35,397 bases of DNA from contig JAADJE010000051.1 of NCBI GenBank assembly GCA_013150915.1, forward strand, positions 1-35,397. Reading direction: 5' to 3'. Every line of letters begins with the position of its first letter. Positions within the stretch are counted from its first letter, which is position 1. The translations under genes and the position numbers were made by a program. Source of the stretch: Gammaproteobacteria bacterium. GTDB lineage: Bacteria > Pseudomonadota > Gammaproteobacteria > BMS3Bbin11. The notes beneath the pieces were generated by a model, which made no database searches, was not told the DNA's origin, and saw nothing but the letters and a program-made list of their open reading frames with translations. Shown here piece by piece: positions 3,850 through 35,397 of this stretch.

Positions 3850-3872
3850 CGGGAGAGCGGATGAACTTCCCG
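3850..3872. terminator. possible bidirectional terminator hairpin
   Basis: CGGGA at 3850-3854 pairs with TCCCG at 3868-3872 in the 75-base gap between the convergent TRAP and LysR genes. A short run TTTATAAA follows on the plus strand. The stem is only five base pairs with a long loop and there is no good T tract, so this is a weak call based mostly on position. Confidence 0.2.
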
Positions 3873-3894
3873 TTTATAAACAATGGAGTTGCAG

Positions 3895-4839: not shown

Positions 4840-4847
4840 CCTCTGGA

Positions 4848-6239
4848 TCACTGTTCAGGCTGTAACAGCCGGACAAGCTCTGAAACATCGGAAAGGTTTT
4901 CAAAATTCTTAATCCGTTCAACTGCTTTGGTTAATTTCATGTCAGAGAGTCCCATGCCGGAAAAAGCCGCACATTCATAAAACTTTTCCACACATTCATC
5001 GAAAGGCATTCGGCCGCCGCCGTTATTCATCATATTCTCGCAAGTAGTTGTCAACTTTCGTCCCCCTGCCAGCCTCAGTTCCACCCTGCCGGCCTCAAGA
5101 CTGTCAAGCCGGGTCATGCTTTCGTCCAGTTGCGCGGTAACCTTGCAAGACAGGTCCCGTATTTTTTCATTACGAATCCCTTCGTCAGTAAAATGTTCCA
5201 GGGTCACCTTCCCTGCCGTCAGGGCTGCCGCCACTCCCCAGGGGACACTGAATTGTGCATCCACAATACTTACCGGTTGTTGTTTTGTCTTGCGCGGTTC
5301 AACTAGGAATCGTGTACCCTCACCATGCCAGACCCGTATCTCCTCTATTTCTTCAACGTCAAAGTCAGCCCCCCGGATCAGTTGCAATGTTGCATCAATA
5401 AACGGATGGACGATACCACAGCAGGGATAACGCTTGGTACCAACATTTGCACCTTCAAAATTCAAACCCAAATCGGACAACAACGCGTTCCCGTTACACG
5501 GAGACCCAAAATATTGCCTGTACAGACCCGCTTCCCCCTCAAGCCAGCCACTTGCACCGCTTACTCCCTCGGCAGCCAGCAAGGCAGCCGTGATCCCTCC
5601 CCTGACAGCAAACCCCACCCCCAGTCGTTTTGTCAGCGCCCCGTCAATCATGGCCTGTGCACTGCCCGCACATTGGTGGTAGGCAATAGCCAGGGCTCCG
5701 TTCATCTTTTCCGGTGACAGCCGAAGAATACGTCCCGCTACTGCAGAACTTGCAGGGAAACCGAATAGTGCAGTGAAATGCCAGCCTGTTACTGATTTAG
5801 GCTGATCACTTTGAACCGCCATACCCAGCCTGCATATCAGATCCGTTCCCATGGCGACAGCAGCCAGGCAATCCTTGCCGGACAAACTACCGGCCTGCTC
5901 TGCAAGGGCCAGTGCTGTGGCAACCGATATTGCCCCCGGATGCACCAGTGCCGCCGGATGTCCGTCGTCAAAATCACGGGCATGCATTATCGTCGCATTT
6001 ATCTGCGCTGCATTTGGCGCTGGAAGCGATAAGTTATGCCCGATCACCGCGCTCTCTTCTCGCCCCCCCCAAGCTGAATTGATATGTACAAGTTCAGCAA
6101 TACCACGCGCCTTAACGCCTGCGAGGCCAACCCCAAGACAATCAAGAATCTGAACTTTGGCTGCCTCAATTACATCGTTGGGCAACATCTCAAACTCAAT
6201 GGAGGCACAATAATCCACTAATTCACGAGCTATATTCAT
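4848..6239 (-). CDS. MmgE/PrpD family protein 2, full length
   Basis: This is a complete 463-residue cytoplasmic MmgE/PrpD protein. Residues matching the active site of cis-aconitate decarboxylase, as I recall it, are all present: HARDFDD (residues 86-92), HPG (His100), GWHFT (His154), LTKR (Lys204) and YPCCGIVHP (His278). The family dehydrates 2-methylcitrate-like acids or decarboxylates cis-aconitate to itaconate, and these cannot be told apart here. It starts 2 bases after the DUF4387 stop, and its own stop overlaps a GTG of the LysR gene. Its closest relative in the window is the copy at 27988. Contiguity with AtuA and DUF4387 suggests that these proteins act on one substrate. Confidence 0.93.
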   Translation of the reverse strand: MNIARELVDYCASIEFEMLPNDVIEAAKVQILDCLGVGLAGVKARGIAELVHINSAWGGREESAVIGHNLSLPAPNAAQINATIMHARDFDDGHPAALVHPGAISVATALALAEQAGSLSGKDCLAAVAMGTDLICRLGMAVQSDQPKSVTGWHFTALFGFPASSAVAGRILRLSPEKMNGALAIAYHQCAGSAQAMIDGALTKRLGVGFAVRGGITAALLAAEGVSGASGWLEGEAGLYRQYFGSPCNGNALLSDLGLNFEGANVGTKRYPCCGIVHPFIDATLQLIRGADFDVEEIEEIRVWHGEGTRFLVEPRKTKQQPVSIVDAQFSVPWGVAAALTAGKVTLEHFTDEGIRNEKIRDLSCKVTAQLDESMTRLDSLEAGRVELRLAGGRKLTTTCENMMNNGGGRMPFDECVEKFYECAAFSGMGLSDMKLTKAVERIKNFENLSDVSELVRLLQPEQ

Positions 6240-7986: not shown

Positions 7987-8043
7987 TGCCACCTACATCT
8001 GTTACCAGGAAACACGCACCGGGATCCAGTACAAGAAAATGTA

Positions 8044-11799: not shown

Positions 11800-11874
11800 A
11801 AAGCAAAGGGTGACATCATAATTTTCAACCCACGTCTTAGCACTATTGCAGGAGGGATCGCCACGGGTCTCGAG

Positions 11875-13811: not shown

Positions 13812-15014
13812 TTGTTACCACTGGATGGCGTGCGTATATTATCTTTTGAGCAATTTGGCGCCGCACCATTTGGCACCCTGTTTCTTGCCAATCTGGGAGC
13901 CGAAGTCATAAAGGTTGAAAATCCAGCTCATAAAGGAGACGTTTCACGAAGCATTGGGCCGTATTTCCTCAACGGCGATGATCCTTCAAACAACAGCCTT
14001 TACTTCCAGTCAGTTAATCACAACAAGAGCAGTCTCACGCTTGACCTGTCAAAAGATGGGGCGCAAACAGTTCTGCATGACCTGTTGAGAACTTGCGATG
14101 CATTGGCAACAAACTTGCGTGGTGATGTCGCTGGAAAACTCGGCCTCACTTACCGCGAGTTGGGCAAGTTCAATCCGAAACTGGTGTGTGCGCATATTAC
14201 CGCTTACGGAAGAAGCGGCCCTCGCTCCAGTTGGCCTGGTTATGACTATATCATGCAGGCCGAAGCGGGATATTTTCATTTGACTGGAGACCCTGACTCA
14301 CCCCCCACTCGTTTTGGGCTGTCGATCGTCGATTATATGACAGGAATGGGACTTGCACTTGCCCTGACTTCTGCCTTGATCGGGGCACGGCAGACAGGCA
14401 AGGGCCGAGACATCGATGTCAATCTTTTTGATATGGCCTTGTACAATTTAGGTTATGTTGCCTTGTGGCAAATGAACGCCGGGCATAATCAACAGCGTGT
14501 ACCACGCTCCGCTCATCCTTCCGTAACGCCATGCCAGCTTTTCAAGACACGTGATGGGTGGATTTATATCAACTGTTCCAAGGAAAAATTCTGGCAAATT
14601 CTTTGCGACAAGGTGGGAAAACCTGAATGGAAGAGCGATCCACGTTTCCTCACATTCAAGGATCGTTTTGAAAATCGCCAACTGTTGAACGATCTTCTCG
14701 AGGATGTAACACAACAAAGAAACACCGACGACTGGATACAGGCTTTCGAAGCCCGGATACCCTTTGCACCGATCCTTGATGTCGAAAGTGCATTGACCAA
14801 TCCTTTTGTTGCCAACAGCGATCGCATCACTACCATCAAACATTCTGACGATGAAGTATTTAAAGCTTTGAGGTGCCCAATAAGGTTCGAAGGCGAACAA
14901 ACCGAGTTGCAGACTGCCCCTGCCCTGGGTCAACACACAGATGATCTACTTAGGGAGCTGGCTGGATATGATGACAGCCGCATCGAAAACCTACGGCAAA
15001 GAAAAGTTATCTGA
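13812..15014 (+). CDS. CaiB/BaiF family III CoA-transferase 1
   Basis: This is a 400-residue family III CoA-transferase, which moves CoA between carboxylic acids. The N-terminus (LDGVRILSFEQFGAAPFGT, LANLGAEVIKVENP) and FGLSIVDYMTG are typical; Asp174 in the latter matches the catalytic Asp of formyl-CoA transferase (Asp169). Translation starts at TTG 13812, six bases after GGGAG. Its stop overlaps the GntR start (TGATG), so regulator and enzyme are coupled. Control probably acts through the inverted repeat at 13684. The substrate is likely a di- or tricarboxylate from TRAP import. It is not closely similar to the second CoA-transferase at 33775. Confidence 0.92.
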   Translation: MLPLDGVRILSFEQFGAAPFGTLFLANLGAEVIKVENPAHKGDVSRSIGPYFLNGDDPSNNSLYFQSVNHNKSSLTLDLSKDGAQTVLHDLLRTCDALATNLRGDVAGKLGLTYRELGKFNPKLVCAHITAYGRSGPRSSWPGYDYIMQAEAGYFHLTGDPDSPPTRFGLSIVDYMTGMGLALALTSALIGARQTGKGRDIDVNLFDMALYNLGYVALWQMNAGHNQQRVPRSAHPSVTPCQLFKTRDGWIYINCSKEKFWQILCDKVGKPEWKSDPRFLTFKDRFENRQLLNDLLEDVTQQRNTDDWIQAFEARIPFAPILDVESALTNPFVANSDRITTIKHSDDEVFKALRCPIRFEGEQTELQTAPALGQHTDDLLRELAGYDDSRIENLRQRKVI

Positions 15015-15754: not shown

Positions 15755-15797
15755 GAAAAAGTTTTAATGTGGACACCTTTGCATGGCAGGAAAGTGA

Positions 15798-17986: not shown

Positions 17987-18043
17987 TTACGGTTCTTCCA
18001 AAGCCCTTTGCAGGATCGCGTGATTCCTGTACAGGAGTAACAT

Positions 18044-18550: not shown

Positions 18551-18554
18551 ATTA

Positions 18555-19841: not shown

Positions 19842-19905
19842 GTTAAAAAACGGAACTGAGCCGACAGAGAAAAACCCGGATTACACGGATCATTAGGCAA
19901 GACAA

Positions 19906-20880
19906 TTGGACCTGAAACAATTACGATTTTTTGTGACCACTGTGGACGCAGGCAGTATCAGCTATGCCTCAAGATTGTTGCACATCACCCAACCGGCCCT
20001 GAGCAGACAGATTACCAATCTTGAATATGACCTGAAGGTTGAATTGCTCTGCCGGACACATAACGGGGTTGTACCGACTGAGCATGGTACAAAGCTCTAT
20101 GCCATGGCGCAAAAACTACTTCGCGATTTTAATCACATTACAGAAACCCTGGCTGAAGTGGATAATGATCCCGTTGGCAGAGTAGTGTTGGGCTGTATGG
20201 ACAGTGTCGCAAATATTCTCGCGTCGCGGTTGATCACTGCTCTGGGTTCAAAGTACCCGAAATTGAGTCTGACATTCTATGCAGATCAGACCACCAACCT
20301 TTATAACAAGCTTGTTGCCAATGCCATGGACATGGGCATAGTCTGCAACAATCCTGAAATTGAAGGGCTACAGACCAGTTTTATCTTGCGGGAGGAATTG
20401 ATGGTAGCCGTGGCAGGACAATTACTACGGGAATTACCTGAACCAGAAATCTCCCCGGAACAACTACGGGAATTGCCCTTTATTTTTCCTCCGACTCAAT
20501 TTTTTTCTGCGGAAGGCACTACAACTTTAAGACGGTTGGCGGTAAAAAATATTGCCGAGGATGTCTTTGCGGGACTAAACATCAAGCTGCGTATTTTGTC
20601 GGAAATAAATGCAGTTTCCATCGTTAAGAGAATGGTTGCAGGTGGGGCATATTGCACCATATCACCATGGTCTGCTGTCTATGAAGAGGTTGAAAAAGGT
20701 AATATTACCCTGAAAACGATTAAAGGAAGCAGGATGTTTCGCGATATCTATTTCTGCTGGCCAAAGTCCAGACCGATGACAAAGGCAACTTCTACTGTAC
20801 ATCAGGTGTTGATGGATACCATAAAGGATCTCGTAGATTCGAGGGTATGGCGCCATGTCAGCCTGGATCCTGATGAGTAG
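19906..20880 (+). CDS. LysR-family transcriptional regulator 3
   Basis: This is a 324-residue LysR protein starting at TTG 19906 so as to begin MDLKQLRFFVTTVDAGSIS like its paralogues. The helix-turn-helix is at about 14-45 (ASRLLHITQPALSRQITNLE). It carries an insert of about ten residues (SAEGTTTLRRLAVKN) in the effector domain compared with LysR 1 and 2. It is 64 bases behind TRAP set 3 in the same direction and convergent with receptor 2, so it may control both. The C-terminal VWRHVSLDPDE echoes QWPHVSLVETGD of LysR 1. Confidence 0.92.
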   Translation: MDLKQLRFFVTTVDAGSISYASRLLHITQPALSRQITNLEYDLKVELLCRTHNGVVPTEHGTKLYAMAQKLLRDFNHITETLAEVDNDPVGRVVLGCMDSVANILASRLITALGSKYPKLSLTFYADQTTNLYNKLVANAMDMGIVCNNPEIEGLQTSFILREELMVAVAGQLLRELPEPEISPEQLRELPFIFPPTQFFSAEGTTTLRRLAVKNIAEDVFAGLNIKLRILSEINAVSIVKRMVAGGAYCTISPWSAVYEEVEKGNITLKTIKGSRMFRDIYFCWPKSRPMTKATSTVHQVLMDTIKDLVDSRVWRHVSLDPDE

Positions 20881-23667: not shown

Positions 23668-23749
23668 CGCTCTGCATAAATGGCATTACTAACCAAGATA
23701 GATTTTATCTATGATCCTGAATACAAAGTATTTCGATCTGGAGGAAACA

Positions 23750-24253
23750 GTGGGAAAGTCAATCAGCAATGGATATCTTTTTGAGGATTTCGAGCCGGGC
23801 CGGGTTTTCAGACACCACTGGGGCAGGACCTTGTTGGCTAGTGATAATATGATATTTTGCAGTGATACGATGCAATATAACCCGCTTTACTTCAATGTGG
23901 AATATGCCCGCAGCCTGGGTTACCGGGACATCCCTATTCACCCATTATTCGTCATGAATGTTGCGGGTGGCATGAGCGTTGAAGACATGTCGGAAGGGCA
24001 GGGAAAAGGCGGAATTTTCCTGGGTGTCGACAATGTGCGCATCATCAAGACTTCTTATCCCGGTGACACCATTACCTCTTCTTCAGAAATTCTTGAGCGC
24101 TACCTCAAGACTGATCAACCCGGCTGGGGGGTTGTAACCTGGCGCACACGGGCTGTTAACCAGCGCGGGGAAACGGTTATTGAGTTTGACAAAAGCAACT
24201 TGGTAGCTTGCGAAGATGCAAGTACTGAAGTGAAAACAGGAGTGCAGTCATGA
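23750..24253 (+). CDS. MaoC-like hydratase family protein, type A, pair 1
   Basis: This is a hot-dog-fold MaoC-like protein of about 167 residues. I choose GTG 23750 because GGAGG (23740-23744) sits five bases before it; an ATG at 23711 would add 13 residues but has no ribosome site. Visible blocks are HHWGRTLLASDNMIF, QYNPLYFNVEYARSLGY, HPLFVMN and GDTITSSSEI. The hydratase-2 catalytic pattern Asp-x4-His reads Gln-x4-Tyr here, so the chemistry may rest on its partner or on other residues, as may happen in mesaconyl/itaconyl-CoA hydratase-like proteins. It overlaps the type B gene by four bases (ATGA), suggesting a heteromer. The same A/B pair recurs at 30609-31579. Confidence 0.87.
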   Translation: MGKSISNGYLFEDFEPGRVFRHHWGRTLLASDNMIFCSDTMQYNPLYFNVEYARSLGYRDIPIHPLFVMNVAGGMSVEDMSEGQGKGGIFLGVDNVRIIKTSYPGDTITSSSEILERYLKTDQPGWGVVTWRTRAVNQRGETVIEFDKSNLVACEDASTEVKTGVQS

Positions 24254-24777
24254 GCCTAACCGGCGATCATAATTATTTCGAAGACTTCCATGTCGGTCAA
24301 CTCTTCCGGCACCGGCGGGGGCGGACAATTACGGCCCATGGCAACACCTATTTTACACTTACAACCATGAACACTGGCGCTGCTCATTTCAACAAGCATA
24401 TGATGCTCACCTATCTGGGTGGCCGGTTTCCCGAACGGCGTGTTAACGGGGGTTATACCATTAGCCTGGTCGTCGGCCTTACCTCCCAGGACATCGCAGA
24501 AAATACCGTTGCTGAAATTGGTTTCAGCAAGATCCGTTCACACAGGGCAGTACATCCCGAGGATACACTCTATGCCCGCTCTGAGATACTGGGACTGGAA
24601 GACAGTCCGGAACGACCCGATGCGGGAACTGTGCATTACCGGTTTGAAGGTTATAACCAAAATGATGAACAGGTACTGGAAGGTGAGCGGATTATACTGG
24701 TAAAAAAACGGGCCTACTGTGGTGCAGTGGAGTTCGGGACTGCTGAGTCAAGCTCTGATCCTGCACCGAAAACATAA
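24250..24777 (+). CDS. MaoC-like hydratase family protein, type B, pair 1
   Basis: This is a 175-residue MaoC-like protein with YFEDFHVGQLFRHRRGRT (about residues 9-26), AHFNKHMM, RFPERRVNGGYTI and HPEDTLYARSEIL. At the hydratase-2 Asp-x4-His position it has Asn-x4-His (NTGAAH), so the His is kept and the Asp changed. It is translationally coupled to type A. A role in hydrating or dehydrating an acyl-CoA is likely from the family. No CoA-transferase, lyase or dehydrogenase lies next to this pair, so it probably works with the enzymes of the operon at 27988-34968. Confidence 0.87.
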   Translation: MSLTGDHNYFEDFHVGQLFRHRRGRTITAHGNTYFTLTTMNTGAAHFNKHMMLTYLGGRFPERRVNGGYTISLVVGLTSQDIAENTVAEIGFSKIRSHRAVHPEDTLYARSEILGLEDSPERPDAGTVHYRFEGYNQNDEQVLEGERIILVKKRAYCGAVEFGTAESSSDPAPKT

Positions 24778-24800
24778 GTATCTGCGCAAGCGCAAGAGTT

Positions 24801-26324
24801 GTGAGGATGCGAACAAGCAAGTGTAATAAAAAGGCAAGCCGGCGCAGGTTCCTCGGTGGCCTCGCCACAGCAGTGCTCGGGGCTACGCTTCCCTTCGTTC
24901 GCTCCGCCGCCGCGTTTGCCACTAAAGGACTCTTCTCCCTCCGGCAAGGTCTGGCTGCACGCATAAAAGGTCCCATTATCGCGCGGGGCGAATCCAATTA
25001 TGAGGAGTGGCGCCGTAGCATGGTCTGGCAGATGCGCAAGCCAAACCGTTATCCCGAACTGATTGTCCGCCCGACCTCCGTCAATGAGGTATCGGAGGCA
25101 ATTGGTTATGCTCGTCGCGCCGGCCTCAAGATCGCTGCCAAGTCGGGCGGGCATCACCAGTGGGCCAACTTCCTGCGCGATGAAGGCATGCTGCTGGACA
25201 TGTGGAACTTTAGAGGGCTTGCGGTCGATCCCGATCGCGGCACGGCACACGTTGGGCCATCGCTGTGGGGCTATCAGTTCGATCATGAGCTTGCCCGGCA
25301 CGGCTATGCCTTTCCCGTAGCGCGTGCCCCAACCGTGCCCCTCGGTGGCTACTTGCTGGGCGGTGGAATAGGCATCAACTGGGACAACTGGGGCGGCCCG
25401 TCATGTTTTTCCGTGCTCGGTGCCGAGGTGGTCACGGCGGATGGTAATCTGCTTAGCGTGTCACCCGAACGTCATCAGGATCTTTATTGGGCTCTGCGTG
25501 GAGGCGGCAATGGCTTCCCGGGTGTAGTAACGCGTTTTAATCTAAAGCTCTATCCCCGGCCGGGTTTCATCGCCACAAGTACTTACAGCTTCCCAGCAAG
25601 TTATCTTGAAGAAGTGGCCGATTGGGTAGTGGATCTGGCCGAAGGCGGACTGCAAAAAGCCGGAGTCATCATGGTCCTTGCCACTGATCCTTCCGCAGCG
25701 ATCAACGCGCCGCCAGCCGAAACCCTGCTGTGTACAGTACGAGTGGATGTCTTCGCAGACTCTGAAACCGAGGCACGAGGCATTTTAAGTCAGGTCACGA
25801 GACACCCGATGGCCCGGAAAGCAGCACAAAGATCTGAATTCCAGCCCACAGATTTAGAGACAATGTTCGTCGGGAGACCAGGCAAGAAACGAAGTTTTGG
25901 TTTAGAGCGCCATTCGGTTGACAATATCTGGACGGACACACCGAAGGATGCGCTCATTAATATCCGGGAGTCCCTCCTGGAGGCGCCATCTCGGCGGTCA
26001 CGCGTCGTGGTCGTCGTGAAGGATCATCAAAACCCTCTCCCGGATGCAGCCTTCTCGGTCAAGGCCAGCGCCTATATTGGCATCTTTATGGTTTGGGATA
26101 ACGCTGCGGAGGACGCGGCGATTCTTGCCTGGTTGCGTAAAAATTCGACAGCTATGCAACCCTTCGCAAGCGGTCACTATATCAATGAGGTCGATGTGCA
26201 AGGGAATCCTCAAAAGATTCGCCGCTCGTTCTCACCGGAGGCGTGGCAACGGTTACGGGCAGTCCGCAAGAAGTATGACCCCAATGGCGTATTTCATGAT
26301 TTCTTTGGTTTGGCAAATGGTTGA
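24801..26324 (+). CDS. Tat-exported FAD-binding (berberine bridge-type) oxidoreductase
   Basis: This is a PCMH-type FAD oxidoreductase of 507 residues. A twin-arginine signal (SRRRFLGGLA, residues 13-22) sends it folded to the periplasm. The FAD domain contains VRPTSVNEVSEAI and SGGHH (His118, the usual covalent histidyl-FAD site); the Cys of bicovalent members is Ala176 (ARAPTVPLGG). The C-terminal RLRAVRKKYDPNGVF is the berberine-bridge domain end. The start is GTG 24801 or ATG 24807. The cytochrome c gene starts 100 bases downstream, so electrons probably go to cytochrome c rather than O2, as in p-cresol methylhydroxylase-like systems. It is likely to oxidise an alcohol, amine or hydroxylated carbon in the periplasm; the substrate is unknown. 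The base composition looks richer in G+C than its neighbours. Confidence 0.88.
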   Translation: MRMRTSKCNKKASRRRFLGGLATAVLGATLPFVRSAAAFATKGLFSLRQGLAARIKGPIIARGESNYEEWRRSMVWQMRKPNRYPELIVRPTSVNEVSEAIGYARRAGLKIAAKSGGHHQWANFLRDEGMLLDMWNFRGLAVDPDRGTAHVGPSLWGYQFDHELARHGYAFPVARAPTVPLGGYLLGGGIGINWDNWGGPSCFSVLGAEVVTADGNLLSVSPERHQDLYWALRGGGNGFPGVVTRFNLKLYPRPGFIATSTYSFPASYLEEVADWVVDLAEGGLQKAGVIMVLATDPSAAINAPPAETLLCTVRVDVFADSETEARGILSQVTRHPMARKAAQRSEFQPTDLETMFVGRPGKKRSFGLERHSVDNIWTDTPKDALINIRESLLEAPSRRSRVVVVVKDHQNPLPDAAFSVKASAYIGIFMVWDNAAEDAAILAWLRKNSTAMQPFASGHYINEVDVQGNPQKIRRSFSPEAWQRLRAVRKKYDPNGVFHDFFGLANG

Positions 26325-26423
26325 GCTGTTCCTACATGGTTACCATGTCTCGCCAGAGACTTGGGAAGGCCTCTGTGTGTGGTGCGGAAGTTCGAGGATG
26401 AGATATCTGCAAGGAGGAGAGAA

Positions 26424-27080
26424 TTGACAGCGTTGCTGAGGGTTATATTGGTTATCGCCCTACTGTGCCTGAGCATGGCCGTCCACGCCGGGGGGGCGAA
26501 GATCTGGTCGGGCGAGGAACTCTACTATACCTGCGCAGCGTGCCACGGATCTAAGGGTGAGGGTCTGACCCCCCGGCATGCCCCAAAGATTGCCGGGCTC
26601 GAAGCCTGGTACCTGGAGAGGCAGATCAACAACTACAAGGCCGGTATTCGCGGTAATCATCCCGGGGATCTCTACGGAAGTCAGATGATTCTTTTCGCCC
26701 GTACGCTCGGCAATGACGATGAAGTCGTGCAGCTTGCGCGCTACATTGCCTCTCTTCCCCGTACGCCGGCACGGCAGACGATCAAGGGTGACCTGGGCCG
26801 AGGCGGGGAAATCTATGCGACATGCACCGATTGCCACGGTCAGCGGGGAGAAGGAAACAAGGATTCTGACGCCCCACGCCTCGCTGGCACGGACGACTGG
26901 TACCTCGCCTCTCAACTGAGGAATTTCCGGGCCGGCGCCCTTGGCTATAGCGACCAGGACAGGTTGGGTAAGCAAATGGCAGACTCTGTCAGGAATCCGT
27001 TGATCGATGATGCTTCCATCATGGATGTCGTGGCCTACATCAATTTCCTCGGAACCGATGATTCAACCAGCAAGCGATGA
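26424..27080 (+). CDS. diheme c-type cytochrome (c4/c553-like), periplasmic
   Basis: This is a 218-residue cytochrome c with two heme sites, CAACH (residues 37-41) and CTDCH in the second half, each followed by G..GEG, and with Met ligands in GSQMILFAR and GKQMADSVR. The internal repeat (KIAGLEAWYLERQINNYKAG and RLAGTDDWYLASQLRNFRAG) marks a c4-type tandem. I place the start at TTG 26424, six bases after AAGGAGG (26411-26417), giving a clean signal peptide ending AVHA; an open frame to 26361 would add an implausible charged leader. It is the probable electron acceptor of the FAD enzyme before it, passing electrons to a terminal oxidase. Confidence 0.92.
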   Translation: MTALLRVILVIALLCLSMAVHAGGAKIWSGEELYYTCAACHGSKGEGLTPRHAPKIAGLEAWYLERQINNYKAGIRGNHPGDLYGSQMILFARTLGNDDEVVQLARYIASLPRTPARQTIKGDLGRGGEIYATCTDCHGQRGEGNKDSDAPRLAGTDDWYLASQLRNFRAGALGYSDQDRLGKQMADSVRNPLIDDASIMDVVAYINFLGTDDSTSKR

Positions 27081-27241
27081 CTTTCAGCAAGATAACGATA
27101 GGGTTTCTTTACCCTCATTGCGCGGGCGACAGCGTGAGCCCCGAGGTAGATTTATTCATCTGCATATTTGTAAACAGCGTGGGGTTCTCAAAATGACATG
27201 CGTCTCTTTGAAGTGGTACATCTCCAACTGGAAAACTCGTT

Positions 27242-27982
27242 ATGGTAACAAGTAATTCAGGTTCAACCGACCAGTGGGGATTTGAATATTTCTTTTCCCC
27301 ACCTCCAGTTAAATCACTTGCGATCGTCGGCAGCAAAACAAGATTTCCGGTTCGCAGAATTTACTGCATTGGCATCAATTACCCCAGACCGCCGCACCTC
27401 CTCGAACAAGCGCCGTCATTGCAGAACCTGACAGAGGGGCAAACAATAATTTTTGACAAGCATCGTGATGCGATTGTTGAAGATGGAGTGAATATCCCTT
27501 ATCCACAAGGCACCAACAACCTTGTGCATGAGGTTGAATTGGTCGTTGCAATTGGAACAAAAGCGGTAGATGTGGATGAAGATTTTGCCCTGAATCATGT
27601 GTTTGGATACGCAGTTGGTAATGATCTTACCCGCAAGGATTTGCTACTGACGGCAATGACATCCGGTGGGGCTGTGGATGTCGGAAAAGCATTTGATGGC
27701 TCTGCTCCCTGCGGCCCCGTCCATCCTGTCTCCAGGGTCGGTCACTTGAACGAGGCACGCATGTGGTTAACTGTTGATGGCTACTTGAGACAGGAAGGGG
27801 ACCTCAAGGATATGTTGAAGAAGCCTCCAGCCCTTATTTCTGAACTTTCTCATTTATTCCACCTGCAGCCGGGCGATCTGATCTATACCGGTACGCCTGG
27901 TATTCCAGGTACTGTAAACAGGAACCAAACCATGGTTGGTGGTATAGATGGGCTGGGTACACTGACTAACAAGGTCATCTAG
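27242..27982 (+). CDS. fumarylacetoacetate hydrolase (FAH) family protein
   Basis: This is a 246-residue FAH-fold enzyme. The metal ligands are visible as HEVEL (Glu97, Glu99) and GNDLTRKD (Asp128), and Lys149 sits 21 residues further, as in FAHD1-type acylpyruvases. GDLIYTGTPGIPG closes the site. The usual NY..H..E lid motif is stretched to NYPRPPHLLE, two residues longer. Family members hydrolyse acylpyruvates, decarboxylate oxaloacetate or act on related 2,4-dioxo acids. A 161-base gap separates it from the cytochrome gene. It is convergent with the MmgE/PrpD gene, their ends only five bases apart. Confidence 0.9.
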   Translation: MVTSNSGSTDQWGFEYFFSPPPVKSLAIVGSKTRFPVRRIYCIGINYPRPPHLLEQAPSLQNLTEGQTIIFDKHRDAIVEDGVNIPYPQGTNNLVHEVELVVAIGTKAVDVDEDFALNHVFGYAVGNDLTRKDLLLTAMTSGGAVDVGKAFDGSAPCGPVHPVSRVGHLNEARMWLTVDGYLRQEGDLKDMLKKPPALISELSHLFHLQPGDLIYTGTPGIPGTVNRNQTMVGGIDGLGTLTNKVI

Positions 27983-27987
27983 TGTAA

Positions 27988-29385
27988 TTATTTTCCCGGT
28001 TGCAACAGGCGGATAAGCTCGGATGCATCCCGTACATCTTCAAAATCCTTAACCAATTCAACCACTTTTCTTAATGCCTTGGCATCAATTTCCAAAATAG
28101 AAAAATCCGCACATGCATAAAATTTATTTGTGCAGTCAGCAAAAGTCATTCGCTGGCCACCTTCATTAACGGTGTTTTCACACATCGCTGCCAGATGCCG
28201 TTTACCCTTTAACTTCAGCTCTACCTTACCGGCCTCAGCACCATCGATCCTGGAAAATTTACTGTCAAATACCGGTACAACCCTGGCTGACAGGCTTGTT
28301 ATCTTCTCATTGCGAATTGCCTCCTCCGTGAAATGCTCCAGCGTGACCTTTCCTTCCGCAAGGGCGGTGGCCACCACCCATGGCACGCTGAATTGCAAAT
28401 CCACAGGATTTCTCGGTTCACATTTCGCTTTGACCGGCTCAATCAAGAACCGGGTGCCCTCACCATGAACGACAACAATTTCTTCAATGTCCCCGGTCGC
28501 AAATTTATTGTTTCCCATCAAATGCAATGTAGCATCGATATACGGATGCACAGCCCCGCAGCCAGGGTAGCGCTTCGTCGCCACGTTCGCCCCTTCAAAA
28601 CGTACCCCCAATTCAGATAATAGAGTGCGATCATTGCAGGGAGACCTGAAATACAGCTGATAAATTCCTGCTTCACCTTCAAGCCAGCCACTTGCGCCGG
28701 TAACGCCGGCTTCTGCCAGCAACGCAGCAGTGATTCCACCCCTGACCGCAAATCCAGGACCGAGACGCTTGGTCAGTGCACCATCCAGTACGCACTGACC
28801 ATTACCTGAACTTTGATGGTAGGCAATGGCGAGCGCATTCAGCATCTTTTCCTGATTTAACCGCAGCAGACGCCCCGCAACTGCGGCACTGGCAGGGAAG
28901 CCGAAAACCGCAGTAAAGTGCCAGCCGAGCGCTCCCCTTGGCTGATCAGACCGGACTGCCATGCCGAGCCTGCAGATCAGATCCGTACCCATGGCGAGTG
29001 CAGCCAAAAAATCCTTTCCCGATACGCCACCGACCAGCTCAGCGGTTGCCAGTGCACTGCTTACCGAGATGATCCCGGGATGCGTCAACGATCTGGCATG
29101 GATGTCATCAAAATCACGGGCGTGCATTATCGTTGCATTCATTTGTGCTGCGTTGGGTGCCGGAAGGGAGATGTTGTAGCCAAGCACTGCGCTCTCCTGT
29201 TTACCTCCCCAGACGGAATTGAGTCGCATAAGCTCTGCAACCCCGGGAGCATCAATGGCTGCAAGGCCAACACCCAGGCAATCAAGCAACTCGATTTTGG
29301 CAGCCTCAACCGCTGGCGTCGGGAGCATGTCAAACTCAACTTCTGCGCAATACTCCACCAGTTTCGTAGTTGTCTGCATGCTCAC
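27988..29385 (-). CDS. MmgE/PrpD family protein 3, full length
   Basis: This is a 465-residue protein closely similar to the copy at 4848. All inferred active-site positions are kept: HARDFDD (residues 88-94), His102 (THPG), His156 (GWHFT), Lys206 (LTKR) and His280 (GCGAVHP). It is the last gene of the seven-gene operon. Its GTG start overlaps the MFS stop by four bases (GTGA); an ATG two codons in (29379) is the alternative. As I recall, the Pseudomonas aeruginosa itaconate cluster also carries an MmgE/PrpD gene beside its CoA-transferase, hydratase and lyase genes, which supports a dehydration or decarboxylation step feeding the same pathway. Confidence 0.93.
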   Translation of the reverse strand: MSMQTTTKLVEYCAEVEFDMLPTPAVEAAKIELLDCLGVGLAAIDAPGVAELMRLNSVWGGKQESAVLGYNISLPAPNAAQMNATIMHARDFDDIHARSLTHPGIISVSSALATAELVGGVSGKDFLAALAMGTDLICRLGMAVRSDQPRGALGWHFTAVFGFPASAAVAGRLLRLNQEKMLNALAIAYHQSSGNGQCVLDGALTKRLGPGFAVRGGITAALLAEAGVTGASGWLEGEAGIYQLYFRSPCNDRTLLSELGVRFEGANVATKRYPGCGAVHPYIDATLHLMGNNKFATGDIEEIVVVHGEGTRFLIEPVKAKCEPRNPVDLQFSVPWVVATALAEGKVTLEHFTEEAIRNEKITSLSARVVPVFDSKFSRIDGAEAGKVELKLKGKRHLAAMCENTVNEGGQRMTFADCTNKFYACADFSILEIDAKALRKVVELVKDFEDVRDASELIRLLQPGK

Positions 29386-30503
29386 AATTCTCTTCTTTTC
29401 CCGGGACTGACTGGACTATGGGGTTGTTTCAGTGACGGTGCTAATCGGAGTAGTGCCAGGCGGAAAAGAATAAAACTGGCACCAAAAAACACCATACCCA
29501 GCCAGCCGATCATGGTGTAGTCATTGCCGACCAGTAAAACTGCTGCCAGAGCGGGGCCCAACGCCAGGCCGGCAGTCTGCATGGTGAACCCCAGCACGAC
29601 AATCCGGCCGTGTGGATCAATGTGTGACAAGGCGCCCAACAGATACGGCATCGTAAAGGCAAAGGCAAAATTGAAGATAACTACCGCAGGCAGGAATGTC
29701 TCGATACTCATGCCATACACGAGCAATAAAAGACTTCCGAGTGAGCAACCCATACCAAAGGTAAGTGCCTTAATTATCCCCAGCCGCGTATTCAGCCGGG
29801 TAGCGAGCAGCGCCCCGAGGATACCTCCCACCGAGGCGCCGGCAAGAACATTAGCAATGGTTTGTATGCTGAGACCGGCGGCAATGCCCAGTCGCTCCAG
29901 GTAAATCCACACCGCACCACGGCCAATGAAATAGGCAAGCAGAGCCACCAGTACGACCATCGTCCACCTGTCCACGAAACCCCAACTGGCTGGCTGAAGG
30001 CGCAAACGTTCGGCGCTGAAAGGCGGGACCCAGCGTACCCAGGCAAAACCCGGTATAACCAGAAGTGCCATTGCGATATAGGCCCCTGAAAGGCCCCAAA
30101 CCTTAATCACGGGCGCCATGACTGGAAAGCCAATAATACTAAACGCAAGAAAGTAAATGCCCTGCAGGCCAAAGATCCTGACCGGGTTACGGGCAGCGGC
30201 AACGGTTGCTTTCATAGCCGCCATGATGACACCAATGCCAATAGCCGCCACGATGCGTGCCGATGCAAGTTGAAGCAAGGTAGTCGCAAGCGCCGATAAG
30301 AGATTACCCAGAAGCATCATGCACAGACCAACCAGCATCAGCGTGCGCCGGTTCCAGCGTCCTATGCGTAAAGAACTCCCCAAAGTGACCAGGCCGACGC
30401 TCAGCATTTCCACAGCGACCACCAGGCCTGCCTCACTGCCACTCAGACCCAGGTCGTCAACCATGGCACCAACAATCAGGGGGAGAAATAATGCAGATGG
30501 CAC
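29382..30503 (-). CDS. MFS transporter; start probably further upstream
   Basis: This is a major facilitator transporter. The first ordinary start is GTG 30503 (373 residues), but it cuts into the first membrane helix. The same frame is open back to the stop of the upstream MaoC gene and reads LDVDSTPVIAATIGLGVIAV before that GTG, restoring a full helix 1 and about 400 residues. The only site with good spacing is GAGGT (30595-30591) six bases before an in-frame ATC at 30584. DDLGLSGSEAGLVVAVE after helix 1 and the RWNRR loop between helices 2 and 3 are typical. It is likely to import the substrate of this operon or export a by-product. It overlaps the MmgE/PrpD start by four bases. Confidence 0.87.
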   Translation of the reverse strand: MPSALFLPLIVGAMVDDLGLSGSEAGLVVAVEMLSVGLVTLGSSLRIGRWNRRTLMLVGLCMMLLGNLLSALATTLLQLASARIVAAIGIGVIMAAMKATVAAARNPVRIFGLQGIYFLAFSIIGFPVMAPVIKVWGLSGAYIAMALLVIPGFAWVRWVPPFSAERLRLQPASWGFVDRWTMVVLVALLAYFIGRGAVWIYLERLGIAAGLSIQTIANVLAGASVGGILGALLATRLNTRLGIIKALTFGMGCSLGSLLLLVYGMSIETFLPAVVIFNFAFAFTMPYLLGALSHIDPHGRIVVLGFTMQTAGLALGPALAAVLLVGNDYTMIGWLGMVFFGASFILFRLALLRLAPSLKQPHSPVSPGKRREL

Positions 30504-30608
30504 AGCAATGACCCCGAGGCCAATGGTCGCGGCAATTACCGGAGTGCTGTCAACATCCAGCGCTAAGTTGCCGTGATCTGGGATCGTAGTACCTCGTAGC
30601 TTGCCTTC

Positions 30609-31106
30609 TCAAAAAGAATCGAAAGCACGTTTCTTCAGCAGAATTGTACGCTCGCCACGTACCACGGGTTCATCCCGCTGGTTGGTGCCCTCAAACCGAT
30701 AACGCAACAGTCCGGCATCTGTACGATCCTCCAGATCCCTGGTTTCCAGTATTTCCGAATTGGCATATAAAGTATCACCGGGATGGACCGAAGTGAGCAT
30801 GCGAATATTCGTGTACGACAGGTCATCAATAGCGTTCTCGGCGATATCCTGGGTGGTAAGACCCACCACCACACAAATAGTAAACCCTCCGTTGACCAGG
30901 CGTTCAGGAAACCTGCCACCCATGTAGGTTTCCATTTCATGCTTGTTAAAATGCGGCGATGCAGTGTTCAAAGTGGTGAGAGTAAAGTAGGTATTCTCGG
31001 ACGCATCTACGGTCCGCCCCCTTCTGTGGCTGATTTTGTCCCCAACATTGAAGTCTTCAAGATAGTTATGACTTCCAGTAAGTATTGACAAATTTTGTAC
31101 TCCCAT
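30609..31106 (-). CDS. MaoC-like hydratase family protein, type B, pair 2
   Basis: This is a protein of about 165 residues, paralogous to the type B protein at 24250: NYLEDFNVGDKISHRRGRT, NTASPHFNKHEM (Asn-x4-His at the hydratase-2 Asp-x4-His position), RFPERLVNGGFTI and HPGDTLYANSEIL. The ATG at 31106 overlaps the stop of the type A gene (TGATG), so both proteins should be made in equal amounts. With the lyase and CoA-transferase upstream in the operon, the expected job is hydration of an itaconyl-, mesaconyl- or longer alkyl-enoyl-CoA. Confidence 0.88.
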   Translation of the reverse strand: MGVQNLSILTGSHNYLEDFNVGDKISHRRGRTVDASENTYFTLTTLNTASPHFNKHEMETYMGGRFPERLVNGGFTICVVVGLTTQDIAENAIDDLSYTNIRMLTSVHPGDTLYANSEILETRDLEDRTDAGLLRYRFEGTNQRDEPVVRGERTILLKKRAFDSF

Positions 31107-31579
31107 CAAACATTTTCCGCATCACGACAACGCACCATATTGGTTTTATCAAATTCGATCACCAATTCGTCCCGCTGGTTAAGCCCCCGGGTTCGCCAGG
31201 TGATGATGCCCCATCCCGGGCGACTTTTTGATAGCCTTCTGGCCACGATCTCCGATGAACTGGTGAGTGTGTCCCCGGCGTGGACAGCCTTTAGGTTATT
31301 CAATCGGTCTATCCCGAGGAACAATCCCCCGCCTTCAGAAAGATCCTCAACGGTCATGCCACCTACGACATTGAATACAAACAATGGGTGGATCGGTATA
31401 TCATCATAGCCCAGGCTGCGCGCATATTCTGCATTGAAATAAATCGGGTTGTACTGACCCGTTTCGCTGCAAAAAATGACATTATCACTACCATGGAGTG
31501 TGCGTCCCCAATGGTGGTGGAAAATCTTGCCTAAAGGCATATCCTCATAGGCATTCAGCACACTTTTTGTATCCTGCAT
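31106..31579 (-). CDS. MaoC-like hydratase family protein, type A, pair 2
   Basis: This 157-residue protein is paralogous to the type A protein at 23750, with HHWGRTLHGSDNVIF, QYNPIYFNAEYARSLGY, HPLFVFN, HAGDTLTSSSEI and RGLNQRDELVIEFDK. The Asp-x4-His motif of ordinary R-hydratases reads Gln-x4-Tyr. GLNQRDE and the pattern around it recall methylmalyl/mesaconyl-CoA hydratases. A strong GGAGGT precedes the ATG. It is 21 bases behind the acyl-CoA dehydrogenase and coupled to type B. Confidence 0.88.
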   Translation of the reverse strand: MQDTKSVLNAYEDMPLGKIFHHHWGRTLHGSDNVIFCSETGQYNPIYFNAEYARSLGYDDIPIHPLFVFNVVGGMTVEDLSEGGGLFLGIDRLNNLKAVHAGDTLTSSSEIVARRLSKSRPGWGIITWRTRGLNQRDELVIEFDKTNMVRCRDAENV

Positions 31580-31600
31580 GGTTACCTCCGCGAATTCTGA

Positions 31601-32767
31601 CTATCTTTCGCCCAACAGGCGCCGCGCAATTATCTCTCTCTGGATGTCACTGGTGCCTTCACCGATGCAGCCGACGGCTGAATCACGCCAGTATCGATTT
31701 ACAGGAAACTCCGTGCAGTAGCCATTGCCTCCGTGTATGTACAGGGCATTCCAGGCGTGCCTTAGAAGCACTTCTGAGCAATACAGTTTAACCATGCCGC
31801 ATTCCATGTCGCAGGTCTCTCCCCGATCAAACTTTTCGGCCACGTTATAGAGCATCTGCCTCCCTGCCTCAATTTCCGTAACCATATCCGCGAGTTTGAA
31901 TCGAATCGCCTGAAATTTACTGATTGTCCGGTCGAATGCCTTGCGTTGCAGCGCATACCCAAGCGCTGCATCCAGCGCAGCCTGAGATACGCCTAGCACC
32001 GTGGCAGCAGCACCGATGCGACCGGCCTCGTAGCCATTCATCAGTTGCGGCATGGCCTTGCCTTCGACTCCACCCAGCAAATTCTCCTCCGGCACCTCCA
32101 CATCATTAAGCTGAATTTGCCAGGTGTGCATGCCGTGATAGCCAGCCATGGGAAGCCGGGTGCCCACCATTCTGGGTTCGTCGAATCCGCCTCTTTGCTT
32201 TTCCACCAGGAAACAACTGATACCCCGGTGCTTTGGTTGAGCTTTGGTATCGGTTTTGGCGTAAAGAAAAATCATATCGGCCTGGCTGGACCAGGTAATA
32301 AACTGTTTCACTCCATTCAATAGGTATCGATCACCTTTTTTCACCGCAGTTGTACTTATATTGGCAAAGTCTGATCCAGCCTCAGGCTCGGTTGCACCAT
32401 TGGCGGTACGCAGGCTGCCATCCGCAATGCGTGGCAGATATTTCTTCTTTTGCTGCTCGGTCCCGCTCTTATTCAGAATCCAGCCGTTCATCAAATTGCG
32501 ATGTATAACCCGGCCGACAGACATCATACCCCGGGCGAGTTCCTCGGTAATAAGCACCTGCGTCAGCGTATCAAAGGGAACACCTCCATACGCCTCCGGG
32601 ATGGTCATGCCGAACCAGCCCATTGCCGCCATTTTGTCCAGCAGACTGTCCGGTAGCTCCGTGTCATTTACGTCAATTTCTGTGGCAATGGGCACCACTT
32701 CGCGCTCAGCAAATTTTCGTGCCTGGTCCCTAACTATCAAGTGGTCGTCATTCAAAATAGTCATCAT
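31601..32767 (-). CDS. acyl-CoA dehydrogenase
   Basis: This is a 388-residue flavin acyl-CoA dehydrogenase of usual length. Domain order is complete: N-terminal helices, the middle beta domain (TEPEAGSDFANI, FITWSSQADM, FLVEKQRGGF) and C-terminal helices with RKAFDRTISKFQAIRFKLADM. The catalytic base is Glu370 in GEGTSDIQRE, the standard position of short- and medium-chain enzymes rather than the isovaleryl type. AGGAG lies six bases before the ATG. In this operon it would desaturate a (2-substituted) succinyl-CoA to the enoyl-CoA taken by the MaoC pair; that substrate is inferred from neighbours. Electrons would go to ETF. Confidence 0.94.
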   Translation of the reverse strand: MMTILNDDHLIVRDQARKFAEREVVPIATEIDVNDTELPDSLLDKMAAMGWFGMTIPEAYGGVPFDTLTQVLITEELARGMMSVGRVIHRNLMNGWILNKSGTEQQKKKYLPRIADGSLRTANGATEPEAGSDFANISTTAVKKGDRYLLNGVKQFITWSSQADMIFLYAKTDTKAQPKHRGISCFLVEKQRGGFDEPRMVGTRLPMAGYHGMHTWQIQLNDVEVPEENLLGGVEGKAMPQLMNGYEAGRIGAAATVLGVSQAALDAALGYALQRKAFDRTISKFQAIRFKLADMVTEIEAGRQMLYNVAEKFDRGETCDMECGMVKLYCSEVLLRHAWNALYIHGGNGYCTEFPVNRYWRDSAVGCIGEGTSDIQREIIARRLLGER

Positions 32768-32834
32768 TTAAGCTCCTCAAGAATTCAGCACCAGTCAGCC
32801 TTTTAACCGACCGAATCAATATTGCACTCAGGAT

Positions 32835-33695
32835 TTATGTCTGAGAATCATCCAAAGCTGGGATTGCCAGGATGTTCCTTGCCCTTTTGGCCACCGCATA
32901 ATCCACCATATGGCCATTGACAGTGATACACGCTTTCCCCTGCGCTTCTGCTGCTTCAAATTCTTCAACTACCTGTCGCGCCCATTGCAGTTCCTCGGCA
33001 GTCGCTGAGAATGCCTCGTGAATCACCCTGATCTGGGCGGGGTGAATACACATCTTCCCTCCGAAACCAAGCCGCCTGCTGCGCTGTGCAGATTCACGCA
33101 GTAGATCCATATCCTTAAACTCCCAATGGGGGGTATCAAACGGGGGCAGCAAGCCGGCGGCAGCAGACTCAATCACAAGGCTCATGCGGATGGGGAGCAG
33201 CTCAGTCTCGTCCTCCGTCCAGACCAACCCTGTGTCCGCCTGAAGATCACCCGCCCCGTAAGAAACACGACTTACCAGCGGACATGCAGTAATTATTTCT
33301 CTTATATTCGCGATGCCCTTGGCGGTCTCCAAGATGGGAATTAGGTCCAGTTCACTGGCGTGGCGATCTCTCTTGTGTGCCATCTGTGACAGGAACCAGT
33401 GACAGATCTTCATATCGCTGGCTGACTCAACCTTCGGAATGACTATTCCTTCACACTCCATATCCAGTACTGCATCGATATCGTCCATGAAAAACTCGCC
33501 ATGAATGGCATTAACACGAACATATATTGGCAGGGTTGCAATTGCAGCCTGACCCATTACTCGCCTGGCATTGGCTTTTTCAGATTCAGCTACAGAGTCC
33601 TCCAGGTCAATCAATACGGCATCTGCACCCGCATTAATGGCCTTGTTGATCTTGTAGGAATCATCCGCCGGAACCAGCAACATACTCCTAAGCAT
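32835..33695 (-). CDS. CitE/HpcH family acyl-CoA lyase (citramalyl-CoA lyase-like)
   Basis: This is a 286-residue CoA-ester lyase of the CitE/HpcH family, a TIM barrel that splits 3-hydroxyacyl-CoA thioesters by retro-aldol cleavage. Visible blocks: LIDLEDSV (residues 28-35), VRVN (Arg60), PKVES, ETAKG (Glu123, Mg2+), GAGDL (Asp150, Mg2+), LPPFDTP and GFGGKMCIHPAQI. Between a CoA-transferase and a MaoC pair the best fit is (S)-citramalyl-CoA lyase (giving acetyl-CoA and pyruvate) or a homologue for a longer side chain. Malyl-CoA-type lyases are the alternative. It lies 79 bases behind the CoA-transferase gene in the same direction. Confidence 0.92.
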   Translation of the reverse strand: MLRSMLLVPADDSYKINKAINAGADAVLIDLEDSVAESEKANARRVMGQAAIATLPIYVRVNAIHGEFFMDDIDAVLDMECEGIVIPKVESASDMKICHWFLSQMAHKRDRHASELDLIPILETAKGIANIREIITACPLVSRVSYGAGDLQADTGLVWTEDETELLPIRMSLVIESAAAGLLPPFDTPHWEFKDMDLLRESAQRSRRLGFGGKMCIHPAQIRVIHEAFSATAEELQWARQVVEEFEAAEAQGKACITVNGHMVDYAVAKRARNILAIPALDDSQT

Positions 33696-33774
33696 TCTCT
33701 ACACCTCATATGAAATTAGTGCCGGCAACCACCGGCTTTTATCAAGCTGTCTGGCTACTGCCAGCTCGGCATCA

Positions 33775-34968
33775 TTAATAAGCAATTGCACCCCCGGCTT
33801 TGAGTTTTTCCATCGCCTCTTCCGTATAACCCAATGACCTCAACACAGCCATTGTGTGTTCGCCTAAAACAGGGGGGCCAAGGTCACAGTTATTTTCCGT
33901 GACCGAACTACGAACAGGGAAGTCCACCATCTTGACCGGACCCAATGTTGACTCAACTTCGGTATACAAATTGCGATAGATCGCCTGCGGGTGATTCAGT
34001 GCGTCAGCCAGGGTGTTTAAGCGTCCGCATGGAATACCTGCCTGATGCAACAGCTCTATCCAGACATCAGCACCATGCTTTGCAAATGCACGGGTTACGA
34101 GCCTGTCCAATTCCACTCGATTGCTAATTCTCATTTCATTGGTTGCAAACCTGTAATCGTCAATCAACTCTGTGCAATCAAGAACCTCACAGAATTTCAC
34201 CCAAAGCTGTCGACCCCCGGTACTTCCCGAAACGATGACGTACTTATCATCACCGGCAACATAGGGCCCATATGGCGCCATGGTATGGTGCTGCACACCA
34301 ACCCGCTTGGGTAACTCACCTTTGTACCAATACATGTACGGGAAGTAGCCCATCCAGTTCATGATGCAGTCGAACATTGCAATATCAATATACTGGCCTA
34401 CACCGTGGTCTTGCCGGTAATAAAGTGCGCTCAATATCGCGGTAGTCGCGTACATCGCTGCAGAAATATCGCAGATAGAAAGTGAAACTTTGGCAAATTC
34501 ATTTTCGGTGCCGTTGGTGGGAATCAGCCCCGACTCCCCCTGGATAATCAGATCAAAGGCTGCTCGGTTGGCAAAGGGGCCGTCCTGGCCGAAACCCGAA
34601 ATACTGCAATAAACAAGTTTGGGGTTCAAAATCTTCAGGGATTCATAGTCCAATCCCCAACCAGCAACAGTGCCAGGCACAAAATTCTCAATAAAGACGT
34701 CTGCATCTTTGACCAGTTGCTTGATAATCTTCTGGCCTTGTGCAGTTTTCAGGTTTATTGCGACACTCTGTTTGTTGAAATTTGCATATACAAAGCCGGA
34801 ACTATGGCCATTCGCCACGGTATCCCAAAGCCTTGTAATATCCCCTCCTTCCGGTCGCTCGATCTTTACAACATCCGCGCCCATGTGTGCGAGATTGCGA
34901 GTACACAAGGGGCCCGAAACCCCCTGGGTAACATCTATAACTTTAATATTGTCTAGTGACGCCACCAT
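33775..34968 (-). CDS. CaiB/BaiF family III CoA-transferase 2
   Basis: This is a 397-residue family III CoA-transferase heading the seven-gene operon. DNIKVIDVTQGVSGPLCTRNL, MGADVVKIERPEGGD and LSICDISAAMYA are typical; Asp167 in the latter is the catalytic Asp position. GGGGAAG precedes the ATG. By position it is the counterpart of itaconate CoA-transferase (using succinyl-CoA or acetyl-CoA as donor), but substrate choice cannot be read from sequence. A 22-bp palindrome and an ATAC-N7-GTAT site lie upstream. Confidence 0.93.
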   Translation of the reverse strand: MVASLDNIKVIDVTQGVSGPLCTRNLAHMGADVVKIERPEGGDITRLWDTVANGHSSGFVYANFNKQSVAINLKTAQGQKIIKQLVKDADVFIENFVPGTVAGWGLDYESLKILNPKLVYCSISGFGQDGPFANRAAFDLIIQGESGLIPTNGTENEFAKVSLSICDISAAMYATTAILSALYYRQDHGVGQYIDIAMFDCIMNWMGYFPYMYWYKGELPKRVGVQHHTMAPYGPYVAGDDKYVIVSGSTGGRQLWVKFCEVLDCTELIDDYRFATNEMRISNRVELDRLVTRAFAKHGADVWIELLHQAGIPCGRLNTLADALNHPQAIYRNLYTEVESTLGPVKMVDFPVRSSVTENNCDLGPPVLGEHTMAVLRSLGYTEEAMEKLKAGGAIAY

Positions 34969-35233: not shown

Positions 35234-35397
35234 TCAAATACAATTTTCTGAGAGTGTCTGGCCCTGTGTGTCGAATGGCCGGTCAGTACGCACCATAAGC
35301 ATTAATCCGGCACCCACCAGGGCGAATACGCCGCCCATGGCCATGGCGAAAGTCCAGCCCAATAGCGCTGCAACTGTCGGCACCAGCAGTGCGTTAA
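35234..35397 (-). CDS. MFS-type transporter, C-terminal end only (partial)
   Basis: On the minus strand a frame enters from the right edge and ends at the TGA at 35236-35234. It encodes about 53 residues including LLGWTFAMAMGGVFALVGAG and LMLMVRTDRPFDTQ, a last membrane helix followed by a short charged tail, as at the end of MFS transporters. The start lies beyond the window. It would be a second transporter gene on the same strand as the operon at 34968 and could belong to the same regulon. The MFS call rests on a short piece. Confidence 0.6.
   Translation of the reverse strand, partial: NALLVPTVAALLGWTFAMAMGGVFALVGAGLMLMVRTDRPFDTQGQTLSENCI

Follow-up and report, generated by a model that had tools for sequence, protein, structure and literature searches.

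A seven-gene operon with a split hydratase, predicted to degrade a branched C4-dicarboxylate in a gammaproteobacterium

Introduction

A gene cluster through which Pseudomonas and Cupriavidus degrade methylsuccinate was described in 2025; in P. aeruginosa and C. necator it comprises Ich, Mcd, MsI, Ict and Ccl (PMC12290011). Here we analyse an operon in which these five enzyme classes recur, with a CoA-transferase of Ict kinship and a lyase whose grouping with Ccl was not rejected, but with a hydratase of another family encoded by two genes, a dehydrogenase of another lineage, an MmgE/PrpD protein without the isomerase tyrosine, and a major facilitator superfamily (MFS) carrier replacing the tripartite ATP-independent periplasmic (TRAP) transporter within the operon. 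The seven genes occupy positions 27988-34968, on the minus strand, of contig JAADJE010000051.1 from a Gammaproteobacteria bacterium (assembly GCA_013150915.1). This entire contig of 35,397 nt (C5 of 122 in a 2.65-Mb draft genome) was analysed and is referred to as the window. We put the probability at about 0.58 that the operon degrades a methyl- or alkyl-branched C4-dicarboxylate through activation, dehydrogenation, hydration and cleavage.

Parts of the operon resemble other described systems. The mesaconyl-CoA hydratase (Mch) of the haloarchaeal methylaspartate cycle, known from Haloarcula, is a two-domain protein that prefers mesaconyl-C1-CoA just 3.5-fold over the C4 ester and is inactive on itaconyl-CoA; it was noted in 2017 that most of its bacterial homologues have only an N-terminal-like domain (PMC5592240). 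In the heteromeric steroid hydratase ChsH1-ChsH2, the inert partner ChsH2 has a tyrosine in place of the catalytic histidine (PMC11321319). Gene clusters with a split hydratase also occur in Tistrella, Reyranella, Bradyrhizobium, Cupriavidus and Hydrogenophaga, and our literature searches found no established function for clusters of this type. A literature search likewise returned no description of alkylsuccinate or alkylitaconate degradation with a CoA-transferase, and searches for clusters combining MmgE, CoA-transferase, CitE and MaoC returned only a fungal itaconate paper.

Results

Gene content and proposed route

Gene calls and family matches located all seven genes and bore out the enzyme classes that an earlier, sequence-only reading of this DNA had assigned: a family III CoA-transferase (ICT), a CitE-like lyase (CCL), an acyl-CoA dehydrogenase (ACD), two MaoC-like proteins (MaoA and MaoB), an MFS transporter and an MmgE/PrpD protein (MmgE3) (Table 1). 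From ICT downward the intergenic gaps are 79, 67, 21, -4, 105 and -4 nt, and because they are short or overlapping the genes likely form one transcription unit. Promoter and terminator scans gave numbers no higher than the shuffled background. The 373-amino-acid MFS frame begins within the first membrane segment and stays open to 30608 with no standard start; the annotated start, the only doubtful one among the seven, is probably too far downstream. Upstream of ICT and on the same strand, the contig edge cuts a C-terminal tail that reads like another MFS protein (about 35236-35397). Since the window is a whole draft contig with this tail upstream of ICT, the operon may continue past the right edge.

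From the genes, their order, their kinship and their active-site residues we infer a substrate, an order of steps, a C1 or C4 CoA ester and products as follows. The MFS carrier would import the diacid. MmgE3 would act on the free acid before activation, by one-base chemistry, and is probably not the known two-base methylsuccinate isomerase. ICT would then activate the diacid with succinyl-CoA, ACD would convert the CoA ester into a mesaconyl-type enoyl-CoA, and a heteromer of MaoA and MaoB would hydrate it, with MaoB supplying the Asn/His pair and MaoA the partner fold. Finally, CCL would cleave the hydroxyacyl-CoA, giving a 2-oxoacid such as pyruvate together with acetyl-CoA or one of its homologues. 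A methyl- or alkylsuccinate-type route is favoured because the unit is compact, offers one gene per step, and has functions that recur together elsewhere.

CoA-transferase and lyase

ICT is the sister of the Ict clade of P. aeruginosa, Marinobacter and Cupriavidus and stands outside it (100/97; support values are bootstrap/Shimodaira-Hasegawa-like approximate likelihood ratio), in agreement with the Ict kinship proposed by the sequence-only reading. Most of our trees hold few characterised members, and kinship is taken as evidence for reaction class, not substrate. The P. aeruginosa reference proteins came from a plasmid record, not PAO1 (its lyase is 99.6% identical to PDB 8khl), and the PDB reference sequences, which derive from printed alignments, are slightly trimmed. 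ICT is predicted to move CoA from succinyl-CoA to a branched C4-dicarboxylate. In the Tistrella-type clusters the CoA-transferases belong to a distinct mesaconate-CoA-transferase-like clade (100/100) that excludes ICT; on the model for succinyl-CoA:mesaconate CoA-transferase the Tistrella enzyme scores 488 bits and ICT 225 bits. Placement of ICT with formyl-CoA/carnitine or malyl-CoA enzymes was also considered, and the tree gives it no support.

One close relative, a Geodermatophilus protein of 51% identity, groups with ICT; no further protein above 43% identity was found in the other genomes searched across the family, class and phylum. A match to ICT was absent from all seven genomes searched in the same genus or family, some of them incomplete, and the trait is therefore accessory.

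In the lyase tree CCL shares one half (95/94) with the P. aeruginosa and Yersinia citramalyl-CoA lyases and lies outside the 99/98 clade of lyases from the split-hydratase clusters. Its grouping with lyases that adjoin two-domain mesaconyl-CoA hydratases, stand-ins picked by that gene context for beta-methylmalyl-CoA lyases, was rejected by the approximately unbiased (AU) test (p=1.2e-6), and with it the candidacy of CCL as a beta-methylmalyl-type lyase. Grouping with P. aeruginosa Ccl was neither recovered in the tree nor rejected (p=0.13). On the NCBIfam model RipC_Ccl, used for comparison with the Yersinia-type itaconate cluster (RipABC), CCL scores 181 bits, below the cut-off of 375; P. 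aeruginosa Ccl itself reaches only 158. We predict CCL to be citramalyl-CoA-lyase-like. Neither it nor ICT thus joined the malyl-CoA or carnitine/formyl-CoA families firmly; such a grouping is what the sequence-only reading had named as telling against it.

Dehydrogenase

ACD, the dehydrogenases of the split-hydratase clusters and PDB 6es9 form one clade (100/99), and a grouping of ACD with the C4-type Mcd of Pseudomonas was rejected (AU p=6e-60). The search output describes 6es9 as an acyl-CoA dehydrogenase only; we take it to be the methylsuccinyl-CoA dehydrogenase that serves the ethylmalonyl-CoA pathway in Paracoccus. On this placement ACD groups with the C1-ester-type methylsuccinyl-CoA dehydrogenase lineage and is predicted to be an alkylsuccinyl-CoA dehydrogenase.

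A probable split hydratase

The two MaoC-like proteins correspond to the two halves of one larger enzyme. In the two-domain beta-methylmalyl-CoA dehydratase of PDB 8hgn, residues 9-152 match MaoA and residues 187-317 match MaoB; in the hydratase tree MaoA groups with the N-halves, and the C-halves of two-domain enzymes nest within the MaoB clade. N48 and H53 of MaoB are invariant in the family alignment (NTASPHF; NTAxxHF), as in the C-halves of two-domain hydratases, and MaoA has a tyrosine at the catalytic histidine position (YNPIYFN). Judged by these residues, the pattern of one catalytic and one inert MaoC subunit fits MaoB (His53) and MaoA (Tyr). Given the half-matches to 8hgn and Pfam MC_hydratase, the tree placement and the catalytic residues, MaoA and MaoB are best read as a single split mesaconyl-CoA-hydratase-like enzyme, presumably assembled from both products.

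The arrangement recalls ChsH1-ChsH2, which also pairs a catalytic MaoC subunit with one that has Tyr for His, but the catalytic half here has Asn/His and not Asp/His, the context is a dicarboxylate and not a steroid, and no DUF35 is present. The N- and C-halves of the Haloarcula enzyme correspond to MaoA and MaoB; the window differs in having two hydratase genes instead of one, a CoA-transferase of another clade, and matches far under the NCBIfam cut-offs. MaoB would be the missing C-terminal, catalytic half for the one-domain bacterial homologues of Mch. On the RipB_Ich model (cut-off 340) the two MaoC genes reach about 92-96 bits, and they are two MaoC-domain genes of the mesaconyl-CoA hydratase type, whereas P. 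aeruginosa Ich is a single 275-amino-acid protein.

A second pair, MaoA2 and MaoB2, opens a plus-strand run at 23711-27982 that continues with an FAD-binding oxidase, a protein bearing two cytochrome c domains and a member of the FAA-hydrolase family. The oxidase has a twin-arginine-like N-terminus, and its nearest solved kin are EncM and 6-hydroxy-D-nicotine oxidase. By its gene content the run resembles a module for periplasmic oxidation that feeds similar chemistry.

MmgE/PrpD proteins without the epimerase tyrosine

MmgE3 keeps H88, D/E91, H102, H152, K202 and K266 of the P. aeruginosa methylsuccinate isomerase active site. At the position of Tyr148 in that enzyme, MmgE3 has Gly and its two paralogues in the window have Ser (MmgE2) and Val (MmgE1). 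The tyrosine has been assigned to a two-base epimerase mechanism (PMC12290011). It was present in 73 of the 88 compared sequences that have the histidine, a few of them counted twice through overlapping loci, and the 15 that lack it comprise the three window proteins, most of their nearest proteins, and cis-aconitate decarboxylase. With the second catalytic base, Tyr148, absent, MmgE3 is predicted to use one-base chemistry, and its candidacy as a methylsuccinate isomerase was set aside.

Recurrence in other genomes

Species genomes scanned with the MaoB alignment yielded at least 514 confirmed relatives, of which 80 loci were kept; the following counts describe the family seeded by MaoB, not its frequency among genomes. 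MaoA and MaoB lie near each other on one strand in 69 of the 80 loci. The pair is joined within 8 kb by a CoA-transferase, a lyase and a dehydrogenase in 44, additionally by MmgE/PrpD in 38, and by an MFS gene as well in 14. Hosts include, besides the five genera named above, Chloroflexota, Acidimicrobiia, a haloarchaeal draft genome and others. The two-gene hydratase and the MFS carrier, which the sequence-only reading had counted as new, are thus common in related clusters. A similar correction applies to its proposal of dehydrogenase-dependent entry from (alkyl)succinates: entry of methylsuccinate by a dehydrogenase and an MmgE/PrpD gene had already been published (PMC12290011). Its account of the P. 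aeruginosa cluster proved accurate: a TRAP set is found there together with Ich, Ict, Ccl, MmgE/PrpD and an acyl-CoA dehydrogenase.

The Tistrella-type clusters share MaoA, ACD, MaoB, CoA-transferase, CitE lyase, MmgE/PrpD and often MFS with the window, with MaoA and MaoB about 40-50% identical and a related dehydrogenase. They differ in their mesaconate-CoA-transferase-like CoA-transferase, their lyase clade, and an MmgE/PrpD that mostly has the tyrosine. A locus of Geodermatophilus sp. DF01-2 holds the nearest kin of ACD (52%) and ICT (51%), a MaoB of about 50% identity and a Tyr-less MmgE/PrpD, but also an extra dehydrogenase, an extra MmgE/PrpD and a fused Tistrella-type CoA-transferase-lyase. 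In this fusion (14300-16429 of locus L042) the CoA-transferase and CitE lyase form a single 709-amino-acid frame. On a Rhodococcus rhodochrous plasmid (7833-13111 of locus L038), a lyase, MmgE/PrpD, CoA-transferase, single MaoC gene and dehydrogenase lie among genes for hydrolases and oxidoreductases, which suggests that such routes may be fed from larger molecules.

Other genes of the window and genome

On contig C121 of the same genome lie a Pseudomonas-type Mcd (62% identical to that of P. aeruginosa, nearly full length), a broken second Mcd, a CoA-transferase (49%) within the Ict clade (100/100), an Ich homologue (40%) and a lyase (30%). By these matches the standard C4 set is present elsewhere in the genome, at least in part, and the window operon would therefore be an additional, divergent system.

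The window also holds three TRAP transporter sets (989-3819, 10789-13632 and 16952-19841, plus strand), two TonB-dependent receptors that are 61% identical to each other, a GntR gene and three LysR genes. Together on a single contig, they give the impression of a repeated island of catabolic genes for related acids. At 6242-7992 on the minus strand, beside MmgE2 and a LysR gene, the gene of an AtuA-family protein precedes that of a DUF4387 protein (103 bits).

Table 1. Genes of the operon and related features of the window and genome
Feature	Position	Strand	Details
ICT, family III CoA-transferase	33775..34968	-	397 aa; CoA_transf_3 374 bits
CCL, CitE-family C-C lyase	32835..33695	-	286 aa; HpcH_HpaI/CitE 129 bits
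ACD, acyl-CoA dehydrogenase	31601..32767	-	388 aa; C-terminal domain 142 bits
MaoA, predicted non-catalytic half of split hydratase	31106..31579	-	157 aa; N-half of Pfam MC_hydratase, 113 bits
MaoB, predicted catalytic half of split hydratase	30609..31109	-	166 aa; C-half of Pfam MC_hydratase, 58 bits
MFS transporter, probable uptake carrier	29382..30503	-	MFS_1 72 bits
MmgE3, MmgE/PrpD protein	27988..29385	-	465 aa; MmgE_PrpD_N/C 193 + 90 bits
MmgE1, cut by left contig edge	2..970	+	41% identical to MmgE2 and MmgE3; Tyr-less; without the first three sites
MmgE2, paralogue	4848..6239	-	65% identical to MmgE3; Tyr-less
ICT2, second family III CoA-transferase	13812..15014	+	different clade from ICT
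MaoA2, second predicted non-catalytic half	23711..24253	+	64.5% identical to MaoA
MaoB2, second predicted catalytic half	24250..24777	+	63.6% identical to MaoB
Pseudomonas-type set, contig C121 (L142/L203)	2684-5569 and 19622-20749		intact Mcd, frame-broken Mcd, CoA-transferase, CoA-transferase fragment, Ich homologue, lyase

Discussion

The operon reads as a mosaic of two known routes, since ICT and CCL side with the C4/citramalyl route and ACD and the hydratase with the C1/beta-methylmalyl route. This division also counts against our interpretation, because the two pairs point to different routes, and with them to different CoA-ester positions and different products. Several further observations weigh on the same side: none of the enzymes exceeds an NCBIfam equivalog cut-off, no relative of CCL above 42% identity appeared in this analysis, spacing alone speaks for the operon structure, and the pathway step of MmgE3 is ambiguous as it lacks the epimerase tyrosine.

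A route running wholly through C1 esters (beta-methylmalyl-type) would account for the lineage of ACD and the mesaconyl-CoA-hydratase type of the hydratase, and the CoA-transferase of a kin cluster scores 488 bits as a succinyl-CoA:mesaconate CoA-transferase. On contig C40 a further MmgE/PrpD gene, dissimilar to those of the window, could encode a 2-methylcitrate dehydratase serving propionyl-CoA use. We nonetheless think this route unlikely, because ICT lies outside the separate mesaconate-CoA-transferase-like clade and CCL was rejected as a member of the beta-methylmalyl-type lyases.

Compatible with our preferred reading, and about as doubtful taken by itself, is that MmgE3 decarboxylates or dehydrates a tricarboxylate or hydroxyacid (compare cis-aconitate decarboxylase and PrpD), and that the operon degrades that acid via an itaconate- or alkylsuccinate-type intermediate. 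The shared lack of the tyrosine in all three window proteins and in cis-aconitate decarboxylase argues for this, as does retention of the His, Asp and Lys residues that hold the dicarboxylate. One absent residue is, however, no proof of a reaction, and the top-scoring solved relatives are not cis-aconitate decarboxylase but the IDS epimerase and B. subtilis 'IRG1', a protein whose function has been doubted (PMC12290011).

The 'itaconate-type' label of the sequence-only reading survives only in part. It holds for the kinship of ICT and for a lyase that is not of the malyl type, and fails for the hydratase, which is of the mesaconyl-CoA hydratase kind, for ACD, which is not the Pseudomonas C4 type, and in view of the separate Ict/Ich/Mcd set. 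An itaconate operon proper would convert itaconate through itaconyl-CoA and citramalyl-CoA into acetyl-CoA and pyruvate, and the dehydrogenase would form a side entrance to it. The sister position of ICT and the compatibility of CCL with Ccl would suit it, but the hydratase lies outside the MaoC-type family of Pseudomonas Ich, its RipB_Ich scores are far under the cut-off, and Pseudomonas-type Ict and Ich are encoded elsewhere in the genome. Moreover, the hydratase's characterised kin Mch does not act on itaconyl-CoA (PMC5592240); this makes itaconate less likely as the main substrate, with the reservation that the window proteins are distant from Mch. Overall we regard an itaconate operon as improbable.

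That the contig was mis-binned, or that unrelated genes came together by chance, is very improbable: ICT has no match in the seven related genomes and three genomes of the same genus lack matches to MaoB and MmgE, but the tetranucleotide correlation of the window with the rest of the draft genome (0.942; other contigs 0.77-0.95) is in line with a native contig, the genes are tightly ordered, and their classes co-occur elsewhere.

Within the preferred reading of a branched C4-dicarboxylate route, the general pathway is known, and the parts for which novelty had been claimed are likewise known or common. The distinctive features are the enzyme mosaic and the Tyr-less MmgE/PrpD. A more specific version, which we offer tentatively and consider unlikely to hold in full, is a regiochemical hybrid in which Ict-type activation leads to the C1-lineage dehydrogenase and the split mesaconyl-CoA hydratase, while the Tyr-less MmgE/PrpD decarboxylates or dehydrates a larger acid to yield the diacid. 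If true, both the catabolic pathway and this reaction of a bacterial MmgE/PrpD clade would be previously undescribed.

These comparisons carry a caution for annotation, in that a unit of CoA-transferase III, MaoC and CitE genes is not automatically one for itaconate degradation. The Tyr-less MmgE/PrpD clade offers a concrete target in the search for a new reaction. More broadly, a split form of the two-domain mesaconyl-CoA hydratase is found widely in bacteria, and in at least one haloarchaeal draft genome, next to genes for CoA-transferase, dehydrogenase and lyase.

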